A stretch of 64,000 nucleotides of DNA from Allomuricauda sp. TMED12. Lineage in GTDB: Bacteria; Bacteroidota; Bacteroidia; Flavobacteriales; Flavobacteriaceae. This document shows, piece after piece, positions 26,924 through 61,026 of the stretch. The notes beneath the pieces were generated by a model. It ran no database searches, was not told where the DNA came from, and saw only the letters and a list, made by a program, of their open reading frames with translations. Both the position numbers and the translations under genes were made by a program. Positions within the stretch are counted from its first letter, which is position 1; every line of letters begins with the position of its first letter. Where the stretch lies: contig NHBR02000055.1 in assembly GCA_002167435.2 (NCBI GenBank), positions 1-64,000 on the forward strand, given 5' to 3'.

Positions 26924-28006
26924 CTACGCGTTGATAATTTTCTCCTGGTGATTAATTGATTCCTGATGAATTGCCTTGAACATTTTCAATACAAATTCCT
27001 CACTCAGTCCTCTTTGCTCTCCTTCCAAGATCATATTGCCCAAAATAGCGTTCCAACGGTTACTTTGAAGTACCGCTACGTTCTTTTGCTTTTTCAGCTC
27101 ACCGATTCCATCAGAAACTTTCATTCTTTTTCCCATTAAATCAATCAGTTGATTGTCCAATATGTCAATCTGAGCTCTCAGGTTGCTCAAATTGTTGTTG
27201 TATTCCGCTTCCTCATCGGTTTCTTTTCTAATACGAAGATCTTTCATCATCTGAACCAAAGTTTTAGGGGTTACCTGCTGAGCGGCATCACTCCAAGCAT
27301 TGTCCGGATCATAATGTGTTTCTATCATCAAACCATCAAAGTTCAAATCCAATGCGGTTTGGGAAACATCAAAAACCATATCGCGCTTTCCTGTAATGTG
27401 ACTTGGATCGTTTATGATGGGCAAATCAGGGAATTTGGTCTGTAACTCAATGGCCAATTGCCATTCTGGAATATTACGGTATTTGGTTTTTTCGTAAGTG
27501 GAGAAACCTCTGTGAATAACACCCAACTTCTCAATATTGGCAGAATGCAAGCGTTCCACTGCCCCCAACCAAAGTGAAAGATCTGGGTTTACCGGATTCT
27601 TCACCAAAACAATTTTATCGGTTCCTTCCAAAGCATCGGCAATTTCTTGAACAATGAAAGGACTTACGGTAGAACGTGCACCAATCCATAACAAATCAAC
27701 ATCGTGTTCCAAGGCAAGATCTACGTGTGCCCTGTTGGCAACCTCCGTTGCGGTTTTTAGACCGGTCTCCTCCTTTACTTTCTGCAACCACTTCAATCCA
27801 ATGGCTCCAACTCCTTCAAAATTTCCTGGACGCGTTCGTGGTTTCCAGATTCCGGCACGGTAGTAACTTACATCAGTATCCTTAAGCTCATGGGCTATTT
27901 TCAGCACTTGGTCTTCGGTTTCCGCACTACACGGACCCGCCACTACCAATGGATGACCCAAATTCATATCATCCAACCATTTTCTCATTTCCTTTCTGTT
28001 TTCCAT
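26924..28006 (-). CDS. bifunctional DAHP synthase / chorismate mutase
   Basis: 360 residues. The N-terminal domain (~1-260) is a short type I DAHP synthase of the KDO8P-synthase-like kind: VVAGPCSAE, YYRAGIWKPRTRPGNFEG, INDPSHITGKR, GLMIETHYDP. The C-terminal ~95 residues are an AroQ-type chorismate mutase (LRAQIDILDNQLIDLMGKRMKVSDGIGELKKQKN). It therefore performs the first step (PEP + E4P) and the branch-point step to prephenate; the C-terminal mutase often mediates feedback inhibition. Last gene of the operon, 8 bp after prephenate dehydrogenase. Confidence 0.93.
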   Translation of the reverse strand: MENRKEMRKWLDDMNLGHPLVVAGPCSAETEDQVLKIAHELKDTDVSYYRAGIWKPRTRPGNFEGVGAIGLKWLQKVKEETGLKTATEVANRAHVDLALEHDVDLLWIGARSTVSPFIVQEIADALEGTDKIVLVKNPVNPDLSLWLGAVERLHSANIEKLGVIHRGFSTYEKTKYRNIPEWQLAIELQTKFPDLPIINDPSHITGKRDMVFDVSQTALDLNFDGLMIETHYDPDNAWSDAAQQVTPKTLVQMMKDLRIRKETDEEAEYNNNLSNLRAQIDILDNQLIDLMGKRMKVSDGIGELKKQKNVAVLQSNRWNAILGNMILEGEQRGLSEEFVLKMFKAIHQESINHQEKIINA

Positions 28007-28014
28007 AATACTCT

Positions 28015-28875
28015 CTATTTTTTCGTAAGTGGTATTCCTTTTAGTATTTGTTTTATTTTATTGGTATTACTCATTTCTAGGTGGACATTCTCAAAATCGT
28101 TGTCCAAAATCAGTTGTTTAAACCTGGTAAGGTTTTGTATGTACTCTTCCAGCGTTTCTACAACATTGTCTTTATTCTGTTCAAAAATTGGTGTCCACAT
28201 CTCGGGTGAACTTTTTGCTAAGCGAACTGTACTCTCAAAACCACTCCCCGCCATGTCAAAAATATCACGCTCATTTTTTTCTTTCTCAATAACTGTCTTT
28301 CCCAACATAAAAGAGCTAATGTGTGATAAATGAGATACGTAGGCGATGTGTTTATCGTGTGCTTCGGGGTTCATATACCGAATACGCATCCCTATATCTT
28401 GAAAAATAGTCAATGCCTTTTCTTGAAGCTTGAATGCTGTTTTTTCTACTTCACATATGATCATGGTCTTATCGGTATACAATCCTTGAAACGCCGCGGT
28501 CGGCCCTGAAAACTCGGTACCAGCAATGGGGTGACAAGCCATAAAATTCCTTCGCTTCGGGTGTTCGGTAACTTGTTCACAGATTAATCGTTTGGTGGAA
28601 CCTGCATCTATTACGACTGTTTCATCTCCGGCAGCATCCAAAATTTTGGGCAATTCAGTGACCAAAACGTTCACCGGGATTCCCACATAAACCAAATCAG
28701 CAGTTTCCAAATCTTGGTAATCCCCTTTTTTATCAATAATCTGAAGTTGGAGGGCCTCGTCCAAATGGGCTTCACTTTTGTCCACTCCAATGATTTCAGC
28801 TTCAGGATGCAATTTTTTTACATCCTTGGCAAAAGAACCACCTATTAATCCAACTCCTATAATGACCACTTTCAT
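28015..28875 (-). CDS. tyrA: prephenate dehydrogenase
   Basis: 286 residues. The N-terminal Rossmann fold (VVIIGVGLIGGSFAKD) binds NAD(P); HPIAGTEFSGP carries the catalytic histidine and SHLSHISSFML lies in the dimer domain. It converts prephenate to 4-hydroxyphenylpyruvate for tyrosine. No chorismate mutase domain is fused here because that activity is on the next gene. Third gene of the aromatic operon, starting 3 bp after the aminotransferase. Confidence 0.93.
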   Translation of the reverse strand: MKVVIIGVGLIGGSFAKDVKKLHPEAEIIGVDKSEAHLDEALQLQIIDKKGDYQDLETADLVYVGIPVNVLVTELPKILDAAGDETVVIDAGSTKRLICEQVTEHPKRRNFMACHPIAGTEFSGPTAAFQGLYTDKTMIICEVEKTAFKLQEKALTIFQDIGMRIRYMNPEAHDKHIAYVSHLSHISSFMLGKTVIEKEKNERDIFDMAGSGFESTVRLAKSSPEMWTPIFEQNKDNVVETLEEYIQNLTRFKQLILDNDFENVHLEMSNTNKIKQILKGIPLTKK

Positions 28876-28878
28876 AAC

Positions 28879-30021
28879 CTAAAATCTTTCTATGGCTTCT
28901 TTGATTTTTTCTTCTTTCACACAAAGTGAAAATCGAATGTATCCTTCACCATTGCTCCCAAAAATGGTTCCGGGAGCAATAAAAATATCTTTATCGTACA
29001 ATACCTTGTCTATAAATGCTTCGGATGCGCCTGCTCCCTCTGGCAATTTGCACCACACAAACATGCCCACCGCATTTTTGTCGTAGGTGCAGCCCAATTT
29101 ATCCGCCAACTGGAACATCAACTCGCGTCTTGTGGTGTACACCTTATCCAATGCTTCAAACCATTCAGGACCACTCTGCAAGGCAGCAATCGCGCCTTTT
29201 TGAATACCGTAGAACATTCCAGAGTCCATATTGCTCTTAACTTTCAGCACCGCATTGATGTGTTCCGCGCTACCAAGCACCATTCCCACACGCCAACCCG
29301 CCATATTAAAGGTCTTGCTCAAGCTGTTCAGTTCCAAGGTGCAATCCTTTGCTCCTTCGATGGACAAAATACTGGTTGGGTTAGTGGCTAGCACAAAACT
29401 GTATGGATTATCGTTGACCAAAAGGATTTCATTCTTCTTGGCAAACGCTACCAAAGACTTTAATTGCTCTTTTGTGGCCGTAGCTCCCGTTGGCATATGA
29501 GGGTAACTGATCCACATCAACTTTACTTTGGACAGGTCTTTCTTGGAAAGTTCCTCCAAATCCGGGAACCAACCATTTTCCGCTTCTAAATCATAAGTAA
29601 CCGGTGCTCCGCCAACCAAATTGGTGACCGATGCATAAGTGGGGTAACCAGGGTCGGGCAACAATACTTCATCACCTTCATTTAAAAATGCCATACTGAT
29701 GTGCATAATCCCTTCCTTCGATCCCATCAAGGGCAAAATTTCGGTATTGGCGTCAACAGACACCTCAAACTTCTGTTGATAGAAATCTGCAATGGCCTCC
29801 CTTAACTGCGGTAATCCTTGATAGCTTTGGTATTGATGTGCCCCCGCTTCGGCAATGGAATCCCGAAGGGTTTCCAACACTTGGGGCGAAGGTGCCAAAT
29901 CTGGACTCCCAATTCCCATATTGATGATTGGTTTGCCTTCGGCCATCAATCCCCTGACCTCCCTTAATTTTTTAGAGAAGTAGTATTCCTGTACGCTATT
30001 TAGCCTATCTGCCGTTATCAT
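28879..30021 (-). CDS. PLP-dependent aminotransferase of the aromatic operon
   Basis: 380 residues, fold-type I class I/II aminotransferase. NLVGGAPVTYDLE, ISYPHMPTGATA (substrate-binding NPTG-like segment reads MPTG), NDNPYSFV (Asp and Tyr contacting PLP) and SLSKTFNMAGWRVG (PLP lysine) are visible. Given its place between prephenate dehydratase and dehydrogenase it most likely transaminates phenylpyruvate and 4-hydroxyphenylpyruvate, or prephenate. Its ATG overlaps the last base of the prephenate dehydratase TAA (TAATG), so translation is coupled. Confidence 0.9.
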   Translation of the reverse strand: MITADRLNSVQEYYFSKKLREVRGLMAEGKPIINMGIGSPDLAPSPQVLETLRDSIAEAGAHQYQSYQGLPQLREAIADFYQQKFEVSVDANTEILPLMGSKEGIMHISMAFLNEGDEVLLPDPGYPTYASVTNLVGGAPVTYDLEAENGWFPDLEELSKKDLSKVKLMWISYPHMPTGATATKEQLKSLVAFAKKNEILLVNDNPYSFVLATNPTSILSIEGAKDCTLELNSLSKTFNMAGWRVGMVLGSAEHINAVLKVKSNMDSGMFYGIQKGAIAALQSGPEWFEALDKVYTTRRELMFQLADKLGCTYDKNAVGMFVWCKLPEGAGASEAFIDKVLYDKDIFIAPGTIFGSNGEGYIRFSLCVKEEKIKEAIERF

Positions 30022-30848
30022 TACAACAATGCATTTTTATATTCACCCAAAACCCTGAAATCTTCGGCCATGATCTGCAACAAAGATTTGGTTTTGGCAA
30101 AGTGCTCATACTTATCAAAAGTCACATCCACGAAAAATGCATATTTCCATGGCGTTTCGATTACGGGCAAGGACTGAATTTTGGTAAGGTTCATGTTGCA
30201 ATCGCTCAAAACATTTAAAACGGTAGCCAAACTCCCTCTTTTGTGATCGGTTATAAATCGTAAAGAGGCCTTATTGATTTCCTTTTCGGGAAGAACCTTG
30301 TTCTGCTTTTTAAGTATGATGAACCTCGTGGAGTTGTTCACAATGGTTTGGATATTATCTGCAATTATTTCCAAATCGTATAATTCGGCGGCCATTTTTG
30401 GTGCAATGGCGGCAATATGCTCCAATTTTTCTTCCTTGATTCGCTTTGCCGTCTCCGCCGTATCCACACTTTCCACCAGTTTTATCTGGGGATGCGCCTT
30501 GAAAAACTCTTTACATTGCAACAACGCCATAGGGTGTGAATGTACCTCTTGGATGTCATCAAAAGTTCTCCCCTTTAAAACCATAAGATTATGATGGATG
30601 CTCAGATAATGCTCTCCAATAACATGAATGTTATTATGGTATACAAGATTGTAATTGGGGATAATGGAACCTGCGATAGAATTTTCAATGGCCATGATAC
30701 CCTTATCAGCAATGCCTTCCAATAAATGATTTATCACTGCATCAAACGAACTGCATTCCAACAGCTCAATATCATTCCCGAAAAAATCTATGGCCACCTG
30801 ATGATGGTTAGAACCCCTGACTCCCTGTATGGCTACTTTTAATTCCAT
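30021..30848 (-). CDS. pheA: prephenate dehydratase
   Basis: 275 residues from the ATG at 30848. It decarboxylates and dehydrates prephenate to phenylpyruvate, the committed phenylalanine step. AIQGVRGSNHHQVA opens the catalytic domain; MAIENSIAGSI and NNSTRFIILKK (TRF motif) are catalytic; the C-terminal ACT domain (SLATVLNVLSDCNMNLTKIQSLPV) would bind phenylalanine. An in-frame ATG at 30884 would place a terminator hairpin inside the coding sequence and is rejected. First structural gene of a four-gene operon; its start codon lies 3 nt beyond the U-run of the attenuator. Confidence 0.93.
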   Translation of the reverse strand: MELKVAIQGVRGSNHHQVAIDFFGNDIELLECSSFDAVINHLLEGIADKGIMAIENSIAGSIIPNYNLVYHNNIHVIGEHYLSIHHNLMVLKGRTFDDIQEVHSHPMALLQCKEFFKAHPQIKLVESVDTAETAKRIKEEKLEHIAAIAPKMAAELYDLEIIADNIQTIVNNSTRFIILKKQNKVLPEKEINKASLRFITDHKRGSLATVLNVLSDCNMNLTKIQSLPVIETPWKYAFFVDVTFDKYEHFAKTKSLLQIMAEDFRVLGEYKNALL

Positions 30849-30851
30849 TGC

Positions 30852-30880
30852 AAAAAAAAAGCCCCGATTGTATCGGGACT
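30852..30880 (-). terminator. attenuator terminator hairpin before pheA
   Basis: On the minus strand a nine-pair stem (AGTCCCGAT with ATCGGGGCT, including one G-U) closes a three-base loop (ACA) and is followed by nine U residues. The U-run ends 3 nt before the pheA start codon, so the hairpin can only serve as a regulated leader terminator. Confidence 0.9.
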
Positions 30881-30908
30881 TCATGTATTGGTTATACTTT
30901 ATACGTAT

Positions 30909-30980
30909 CTACAACAGTCCCGTTCCTCTTTGAAAAAAGAAGTAAAAATAAAAACGGTTCCAGAAATACGTGTTTGTCAT
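30909..30980 (-). CDS. Phe/Tyr-rich leader peptide
   Basis: ATG at 30980 to TAG at 30909, 23 codons. Residues 5-7 read YFW and 10-16 read FYFYFFF: six Phe, three Tyr and one Trp in 23 residues, packed immediately before the segment that forms the antiterminator. The composition, position upstream of pheA and the overlapping alternative RNA pairings mark it as a leader peptide in the manner of pheL, although the peptide sequence itself is unrelated. No Shine-Dalgarno site is visible, as is common in Bacteroidota. Confidence 0.88.
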   Translation of the reverse strand: MTNTYFWNRFYFYFFFQRGTGLL

Positions 30981-31225
30981 CTTTGTAATAATTCTCGGCT
31001 AATTTAGGTATTCAATTGTAAACACACAGAGATTCCCAAATTTTTTTTGATTTTTTTCAAAAAGGCTCCTTTCGCTGCACATTATTTTATAGAAACCACA
31101 TTTTTTTAAGAATTCCTATTCTTATGATTATTTCCCCATGATTAAAAACCATGCATCCTGGATTTTGAAACCCAAGGATTAAAGCTTCTAAAAGTGTATT
31201 TTTGAAATCAATAAATTTATATTGA

Positions 31226-44549: not shown

Positions 44550-44621
44550 ATACCATTTTCCTTCCTAAAAGGATGTAGTGAAATCAAGAAAAGTGCGTAG
44601 ATGCTGTACTGTTTGCTTTAC

Positions 44622-44758
44622 GTTATCCTTCCCCTTACAGATTAAAGTTCCCAAAGGTCTCGAAACCAGTTCAAGACAAGGGTAGAATGTAGCACCTTCT
44701 CGAAGTCGAGGGTTGCTAAGGCTTCACAGGGTCCAATCCCTCCACCTTTCTTGATAAC
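44622..44758 (-). promoter_or_regulatory. SAM-I (S-box) riboswitch upstream of metH operon, enlarged P4
   Basis: Conserved S-box features on the minus strand: AAGAAAGGTGGAGGGA, GAAGCCTTAGCAACC, GAAGGTGCTACATTCTACC. P1 is GTTATC (44758-44753) with GATAAC (44627-44622); P3 is CTCGA/TCGAG. P4 closes with CCCTT and AAGGG but holds ~50 extra nt including its own hairpin (GGTTTCGAGACC region), making the aptamer 137 nt instead of about 100. No terminator is seen before the gene; a CCTT/AAGG hairpin over the purine-rich AGGAAGG near the start suggests control of translation (inference). Confidence 0.92.
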
Positions 44759-44849
44759 ACTTTCAACTTATTAATGAACTGAACTGCAAAGAAACGGCTC
44801 TCCCTAGTGAAAAGCAAAAAAAGCCCTTGAATTTTTAGAAAACCAACAA

Positions 44850-57112: not shown

Positions 57113-57198
57113 ATAAACGACTATAGACCCTCAAAAGGGTCAAAAAATTAATAAATAGTAAAGGTTATAAGAAAGAAGGGGCAGAAACCACCTGTGAT

Positions 57199-57298
57199 GT
57201 TATCTATTCCCAAAGGGATAGAATGTAGCACCTTCTTGACTAGGGTCAAGGGTTGCTAAGGCTTCAACGGGTCTATTCCCTCCACCTTTCTTGATAAC
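57199..57298 (-). promoter_or_regulatory. SAM-I (S-box) riboswitch upstream of MetX-AK-HSD gene
   Basis: Minus-strand S-box consensus: GTTATCAAGAAAGGTGGAGG, then GAAGCCTTAGCAACC, GAAGGTGCTACATTC. P1 is GTTATC/GATAAC (57298-57293 with 57204-57199); P4 is CTAT-CCC/GGG-ATAG with a TTT loop. Standard 100-nt size. The hairpin GACCCT-TTTG-AGGGTC (57141-57126) lies 13 nt before the start codon without a following U-run, suggesting translational control (inference). Confidence 0.93.
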
Positions 57299-57409
57299 TA
57301 ACAATACGTGTTTGAACTTCGTGAGACAAATATACTGATGGAAAAATTGATTTTCCTAATCTTTTGGAAAATTTTCATCAAACAACCTTGCCCCACGAAC
57401 TTCTATTTT

Positions 57410-60703: not shown

Positions 60704-61026
60704 TTTTATTTTTTAATGTGAAGATTTGACAAAAGTGCGAAGTAGTTCAAAACCCTTACCGAAGAGATGCCAACGTAAGCTGGCAAGAACTGCTTTAGCA
60801 TTTTTCGTACACCTATTTAAGGTAACCGAGGTTGCAATCAGTCAAATCTTTCCTCGTTTCGATGCGCAAAAGTACGTATTTGGAACTTATTTTAAAACTT
60901 TGTTCTTCACTAAAACAAGATCGCCCATTTGAACCAGATTTTTTTCTAGACGTGGATATACTTTGTATATTGCGATGATTAGAAATTCCCTGATCATTAA
61001 ACACCAACTTAAAACAATCACACCCC
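60704..61026. other. gene-free divergent region between metK and deoxynucleoside kinase
   Basis: 323 bp holding both 5' leaders. An imperfect hairpin GCCAACGTAAGCTGGC is at 60769-60784, close to the metK side. On the other side TATACTTTG at 60957-60965 resembles the Bacteroidota -7 box and would lie ~60 bp before the kinase start. No conserved riboswitch core, coding frame of interest or repeat was seen. Confidence 0.5.

Follow-up and report, generated by a model that had tools for sequence, protein, structure and literature searches.

Comparative sequence analysis, together with a model of ribosome position, makes it highly probable that the pheA operon of Allomuricauda sp. TMED12 is controlled by a classical ribosome-mediated transcription attenuator that senses charged tRNA-Phe and tRNA-Tyr. 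The core of the original prediction, a leader-peptide attenuator with Phe and Tyr codons as its sensor, is strongly supported by the comparative data, which establish the anatomy of the element, its conservation, the covariation of both alternative helices, their spacing from the control codons and the retention of the aromatic residues. Throughout, the window means the whole stretch of 64,000 nucleotides that was analysed.

The pheA operon and its leader region

The order pheA, aminotransferase, tyrA, DAHP synthase/chorismate mutase is conserved in 76 of the 80 named relatives, and the remaining 4 loci are partial sequences that show the first two or three genes. The nearest named relatives belong to Muricauda, Allomuricauda and Flagellimonas, and a divergent gene with a match to GldA lies on the other side. 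The pheA start codon is the ATG at 30848, 3 nt past the end of the terminator T-run at 30852. The in-frame ATG that stands next to the terminator, at 30884, is a doubtful start because the close relative L002 has ATA there.

As expected of a classical attenuator, the region upstream of pheA contains a leader open reading frame (ORF) in which codons for the product amino acids form a run, an intrinsic terminator before the first gene (by both sequence and structure), and an antiterminator that extends into the 3' end of the leader and has one arm in common with the terminator. The features are, in window coordinates:

26924..28006, minus strand: DAHP synthase/chorismate mutase fusion (PF00793 and PF01817)
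28015..28875, minus strand: tyrA, prephenate dehydrogenase (NF006307, 393 bits against a cut-off of 295)
28879..30021, minus strand: class I/II aminotransferase, second gene (PF00155; order conserved)
30021..30848, minus strand: pheA, prephenate dehydratase, the first and, by prediction, regulated gene (PF00800, E 1.1e-58)
30852..30860, minus strand: terminator T-run, ending 3 nt 5' of the pheA start codon (sequence, pattern scan)
30860..30868, minus strand: segment 4, AUCGGGGCU, 3' arm of the terminator (covariation; terminator-like site in the pattern scan)
30872..30880, minus strand: segment 3, AGUCCCGAU, arm common to antiterminator and terminator (covariation of both helices)
30916..30922, minus strand: segment 2, CGGGACU, within codons 20-22 (pairs with segment 3)
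30925..30942, minus strand: Phe-codon hairpin CUUCUUU/AAAGAGG with loop UUUC (96.3% of cells paired in 35 relatives)
30933..30953, minus strand: control codons 10-16, Phe-Tyr-Phe-Tyr-Phe-Phe-Phe (counts in 89 distinct leaders)
30960..30968, minus strand: upstream aromatic codons 5-7, Tyr-Phe-Trp (counts in 89 distinct leaders)
30980..30909, minus strand: leader ORF of 23 codons, ATG to TAG (72 nt), MTNTYFWNRFYFYFFFQRGTGLL (sequence and conservation)
30999..31006, minus strand: probable -7 promoter element, TAAATTAG (conservation of TTAG[C/T])

Conservation of the leader peptide

A leader of 23 codons with the run FYFYFFF at codons 10-16 had been predicted, and both are present on the minus strand (ORF at 30980..30909, run at 30953..30933). 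A leader with at least five aromatic residues in seven is found at 109 of the 110 near-relative pheA loci, and its length is nearly constant among them. These loci are the best-scoring relatives, with some genomes counted under two identifiers (L002 and L045, for example). At the single exception, L080, the end of the contig 152 nt before the pheA match cuts the leader region.

Codons were counted in 89 distinct leaders of 24 codons (stop included). Within the control run, Phe is kept at codon 10 in 88, at codon 12 in 88, at codon 14 in 88, at codon 15 in all 89 and at codon 16 in 86 leaders, and Tyr is kept at codon 11 in 82 and at codon 13 in 85. Upstream of the run, Tyr 5 and Phe 6 are each kept in 87 leaders, and codon 7 is Trp in 77, Phe in 7, Tyr in 4 and Asn in 1. 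Pairwise difference rates at the aromatic codons (5-7 and 10-16) are 0.016, 0.064 and 0.158 at the first, second and third positions. The aromatic residues are thus kept while third positions vary, as expected if the leader codons are read.

Among the close relatives, the leader peptide shows unusually strong codon-by-codon conservation, which extends to an Asn at codon 8 (79 of 89 leaders), and no pairing was found in these 89 leaders that accounts for the conservation of this codon. Such conservation, along with the near-constant length, would fit nascent-peptide arrest of the TnaC-like kind, in which a conserved peptide stalls the ribosome with the free amino acid as ligand, and the stall is not due to a shortage of charged tRNA. 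Across families, however, the peptide varies freely except for its richness in Phe and Tyr, and the conserved non-aromatic codons 18-22 coincide with required RNA pairing. Stalling on a plentiful amino acid would, moreover, act in the wrong direction for a biosynthetic operon, barring an inverted logic, and we hold peptide arrest to be highly improbable.

Within an attenuator that reads tRNA charging, the leader might also sense Phe only, with Tyr codons merely tolerated beside Phe codons (UUU/UAU). The first gene, pheA, serves Phe synthesis, and Phe is the commonest leader residue (22.6% versus 15.5% for Tyr in the 170-genome scan described below). Nevertheless, all 134 leaders that have a terminator in that scan contain both Phe and Tyr, codons 11 and 13 are Tyr in nearly all of the 89 leaders, and the operon includes tyrA and DAHP synthase. 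A response to Phe only is, in our view, unlikely, and the joint sensing of tRNA-Phe and tRNA-Tyr is preferred.

Of 100 distinct upstream regions, 97 have the motif TTAG[C/T] no more than 35 nt 5' of the leader ATG, as against about 7.6 expected from shuffles. In the window the corresponding element, TAAATTAG, resembles the TAnnTTTG box of F. psychrophilum (PMC9723704). The transcript would probably begin a few nucleotides downstream, and the stretch between its 5' end and the leader ATG would be very short.

Covariation of the alternative helices

The antiterminator (2:3) is a perfect 7-bp helix between CGGGACT (30922..30916) and AGTCCCG (30880..30874) on the minus strand, and the terminator (3:4) is formed on the same strand by the arms AGTCCCGAT (30880..30872) and ATCGGGGCT (30868..30860). 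The terminator has 11 stem pairs in the pattern scan, and its hairpin has a folding z of -3.24 relative to shuffles. In an alignment of 35 sequences that are less than 84% identical to each other, 94.7% of cells are paired in the antiterminator, with changes on both sides at 4 of the 7 pairs. The corresponding values for the terminator are 93.3% of cells and both-side changes at 7 of the 9 pairs (24 such cells), and the covariation observed in the two helices is reached in 0 of 500 shuffles. In L028, for instance, the shared arm is altered and both helices are retained (GAGACT, AGTCTC, GAGGCT), and the antiterminator is likewise retained in L098 (GGAACT, AGTTCC). The 7-bp antiterminator and the 9-bp terminator of the original prediction, the latter sharing segment 3 and followed by a U-run, are therefore both present and covarying.

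Riboswitches and protein-bound leader RNAs (T-box-like or TRAP-like) likewise act through a terminator/antiterminator pair, and in an RNA of that type the ORF would be incidental. The conserved alignment columns, however, are for the most part those of the leader, of segment 2 and of the terminator, and the aromatic residues are kept as third codon positions vary. In addition, neither the pheA element in the window nor 12 related phe loci match any Rfam family at or above its cut-off. We consider an RNA of this type extremely improbable, and favor a leader whose translation would set the choice between the two helices.

The third pairing that had been drawn, an 8-bp helix between segments 1 and 2 (CCGTTTTT/AGGAACGG, 30957..30950 with 30927..30920), exists in the window sequence, but it is unconserved and places no block on the antiterminator in the model described below. 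In the 35 relatives only 69.6% of its cells are paired, and we reject it as a conserved part of the element. Sliding the helix by one to three columns gives 68.2 to 71.4% paired upstream and 55.0 to 40.0% downstream, its second pair (column 28:66) occurs in 1 of 35 sequences, and its values are reached in 341 to 406 of 500 shuffles. The check on conservation in relatives that accompanied the prediction thus bears out the leader, the antiterminator and the terminator, but not the 1:2 segment.

The Phe-codon hairpin ends before segment 2 begins and does not overlap it. Its covariation in the 35 relatives is not above that of shuffles, 72 to 108 of 500 of which reach it. This hairpin is possibly a pause hairpin, and it may explain the constancy of codon 14, which is TTC in 88 of 89 leaders. 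Neither the drawn 1:2 pairing nor the Phe-codon hairpin provides a conserved competitor of 2:3 like the pause or protector hairpin that is counted among the marks of a classical attenuator. Such a protector is characteristic of E. coli trp-type attenuators and is not known to be needed in every classical attenuator. Since no conserved 1:2 hairpin competes with 2:3, read-through would be the expected tendency of a leader that is not translated.

A model of ribosome position and the proposed mechanism

The effect of ribosome position was modelled in 33 relatives with 24-codon leaders (stop included) by masking the RNA from the 5' end to a point 11 nt past the start of the A-site codon, the ribosome being assumed to reach this far. 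Before segment 4 exists, the mean upstream pairing of segment 3 is 0.75 with the A site at codons 5-16, 0.73 at codon 17, 0.18 at codon 18 and 0.08 at the stop codon. The window itself gives 0.70 up to codon 17 and 0.02 at codon 18. The aromatic run ends at codon 16, and the modelled switch comes one codon later. The gap between the last aromatic codon and segment 2 has a median of 11 nt (5th-95th percentile 7-14) in 126 genomes, and lies within 3 to 17 nt in 123 of them.

With no ribosome in the model, mean upstream pairing is 0.55, with 24 of the 33 relatives at 0.5 or above and the window at 0.70. Because pairing persists in this state, super-attenuation is not a prediction of the model. 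Once the RNA is full length, the terminator is favored in every modelled state (means 0.66 to 0.96), so that the switch must be kinetic, with the choice made during transcription, and the equilibrium model alone does not demonstrate it.

We infer the transcription start, the translation of the leader, premature termination and the response to Phe and Tyr as follows. RNA polymerase would start a short distance 5' of the leader, and a trailing ribosome would translate the 23 codons. When charged tRNA-Phe or tRNA-Tyr is scarce, the ribosome would wait with its A site at codons 10-16 (or 5-6) and its front edge just short of segment 2, which could then pair with the newly made segment 3. Formation of 2:3 would block the terminator, and the pheA operon would be transcribed. 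When both tRNAs are charged, the ribosome would reach the stop codon and cover segment 2, 3:4 would form, and transcription would end at the U-run, 3 nt before pheA.

Distribution within and outside the class

The wider sample consists of the pheA upstream regions of 170 genomes in 29 families of the class (family numbers are working labels). Of the 106 other genomes of the class that match pheA, it includes 101, the five most distant (G634, G774, G681, G740 and G721) being dropped; to these are added 69 family genomes hand-picked from 360 matches, 40 from listed places and 29 from weaker matches. The gene start in G522, which has a partial pheA match, was set by hand. A leader is called in 140 of the 170 genomes, a leader with a terminator in 134 (19 families), and these with an antiterminator of at least 5 bp in 126 (18 families). 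The corresponding counts in the controls are 66, 0 and 0 of 3400 dinucleotide shuffles and 5, 0 and 0 of 170 reverse strands.

These controls bear on the possibility that the element is a product of chance, its Phe-rich frame being due to the base composition of a T-rich intergenic region before a terminator. An aromatic-rich ATG frame on its own does arise in a few of the shuffles and reverse strands, but the frame together with a terminator arises in none of them, and both helices covary. The probability of such an accident is vanishingly small.

A stricter first detector called 100 of the 170 genomes, 0 of 850 shuffles and 0 of 170 reverse strands, and its misses, among those listed, include many leaders with weak stems. 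The limits of the looser scan were chosen after inspecting these misses and were then re-controlled. Because the limits were loosened post hoc, the weight rests on the shuffles and reverse strands and not on the raw count.

No leader is called in 30 genomes, which include 8 of 8 in f13, 4 of 7 in f16, 4 of 82 in f1, 1 of 3 in f22 and 1 of 6 in f36; the remaining 12 are all of the sampled genomes of f2, f4, f24, f25, f26, f46, f55, f64 and f72. Two of the 30, G669 (f36, with a GTG-started leader) and G119 (f1, absent from the misses listed), count as present in the stricter scan, which permitted other start codons and covered 450 nt rather than 260 nt. In six further genomes a leader is called and a terminator is not. 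At three f16 loci of genus g309 (L153, L156 and L158), the leaderless pheA apparently lies close behind another coding stretch, in a different gene context. Trp is found in 80 of the 134 leaders with a terminator, 62 of 78 in f1 and 18 of 56 elsewhere.

A search of the class with model R1 matches 174 of 395 genomes at E <=0.01, a tally that is not used as an attenuator count because many of the matches span the terminator part only. A pheA-like gene follows the element in 25 of the 30 best loci (L111 being the window); none was found after the match in L129, L136, L137, L138 and L140.

Outside the class, 23 pheA matches were read, comprising the three best-scoring and 20 picked to span many families. 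None of the 20 upstream regions, from other families of the phylum, has a leader with at least five aromatic residues in seven within 700 nt. The three best-scoring, L307, L314 and L315 (f95, f83 and f86), have a leader with six aromatic residues in seven and a terminator. Their pheA genes are 41-47% identical to the query and score far above those of the other matched members of their own families. Judged from these scores rather than from a tree, the simplest reading would be that pheA moved together with its attenuator into these lineages.

Relationship to known systems

Attenuation of this kind is textbook, and what is added here for the pheA element is its extent across the class, its geometry and the apparent transfer with pheA. 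The E. coli trp and pheA attenuators likewise have control codons, a ribosome stall and mutually exclusive 2:3 and 3:4 helices. In E. coli a competing 1:2 helix leads to super-attenuation without translation, whereas no conserved competitor was found in the relatives aligned here. The Rfam family Phe_leader (RF01859) is a proteobacterial leader family, from a different phylum. It resembles the present element in having a Phe leader peptide and a terminator, and a weak match aligns along the whole element, but the score is 29.3 bits against a cut-off of 55 and the leader described here mixes Phe and Tyr. Bacteroid-trp (RF01692; PMC2864571) is a peptide-leader RNA from the same phylum but has Trp codons and lies before trpE; it has no match in the window at the gathering cut-off. 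For B. thetaiotaomicron, PMC7366714 mentions 5' UTRs in which small ORFs are 'reminiscent of leader peptides'.

Whether the attenuator had been described for this lineage was a point left open in the original prediction, and the literature shows that it had been in part. The accessible text of a 2021 Flavobacterium transcriptome study (PMC9723704) reports a structured 5' element at pheA, without an Rfam match, in F. psychrophilum and other Flavobacteriaceae genera, and states that there are strong clues for leader-peptide attenuation 5' of amino-acid operons. The gene and the bacterial family are the same, and the position of that element suggests that it is the attenuator described here, but the leader sequence, a pairing scheme and any reach past Flavobacteriaceae are absent from that text. 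Among the papers covered by our literature search, which extended to accessible text and not to subscription papers, none was found that gives the leader, the pairings or the class-wide reach at pheA. The present example has hardly been described before. A comparative paper by Lopatovskaya, Seliverstov and Lyubetsky, cited in PMC4833913, may hold Bacteroidetes cases.

Other regulatory elements in the genome and window

Elsewhere in the same genome, locus L300 (contig C38) has a Trp leader, MINGTINNWWWNNLRKTS, 5' of trpE, followed by a terminator-like hairpin. This leader matches Rfam RF01692 with 65.6 bits against a cut-off of 49. With the Phe/Tyr leader at pheA and the Trp leader at trpE, the genome has, by sequence, at least two peptide-leader attenuators. 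No leader was noticed at a second trpE-like locus or at ilvD in this genome. HisG has no match in the genome (G000), the assembly of which is rated 98.74% complete; this may reflect either His auxotrophy or an assembly gap.

The window also contains two SAM (S-box) riboswitches, at 44620-44760 and 57197-57300 on the minus strand. One is 5' of a protein with a homocysteine S-methyltransferase domain, and the other is 5' of a fusion protein of 1127 residues that joins an alpha/beta-hydrolase domain, an amino acid kinase and a homoserine dehydrogenase. We take the kinase to be an aspartokinase and the hydrolase to be perhaps MetX-like. A SAM-II riboswitch at 60785-60861 (minus strand) lies 5' of S-adenosylmethionine synthetase, and two SAM riboswitch classes thus occur within 17 kb.

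Implications

The pheA leader and its predicted RNA switch are conserved in many related families, far beyond chance, and the sensing of amino-acid shortage by a stalled ribosome very probably operates at pheA in this organism. More tentatively, and with considerable doubt, an old attenuator of the class may read all three aromatic amino acids, default to read-through, and have passed with pheA to a few distant lineages. This suggestion draws on the Trp or other aromatic residue at codon 7 in Flavobacteriaceae-type leaders, on the presence of the first common enzyme in the operon and on the missing protector hairpin. If it is true, only a ribosome that finishes the leader would shut the pheA operon off.

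The leader could enter Rfam as a new family, could serve as a natural Phe/Tyr sensor in these bacteria and allows a clean test of the need for a protector hairpin. According to PMC9723704, F. psychrophilum lacks Shine-Dalgarno sequences, and textbook amino-acid attenuation would thus be found across many families of a class that has at least one member without them. The spread of attenuation over the class would imply that ribosomes trail RNA polymerase closely enough for such a switch to work.
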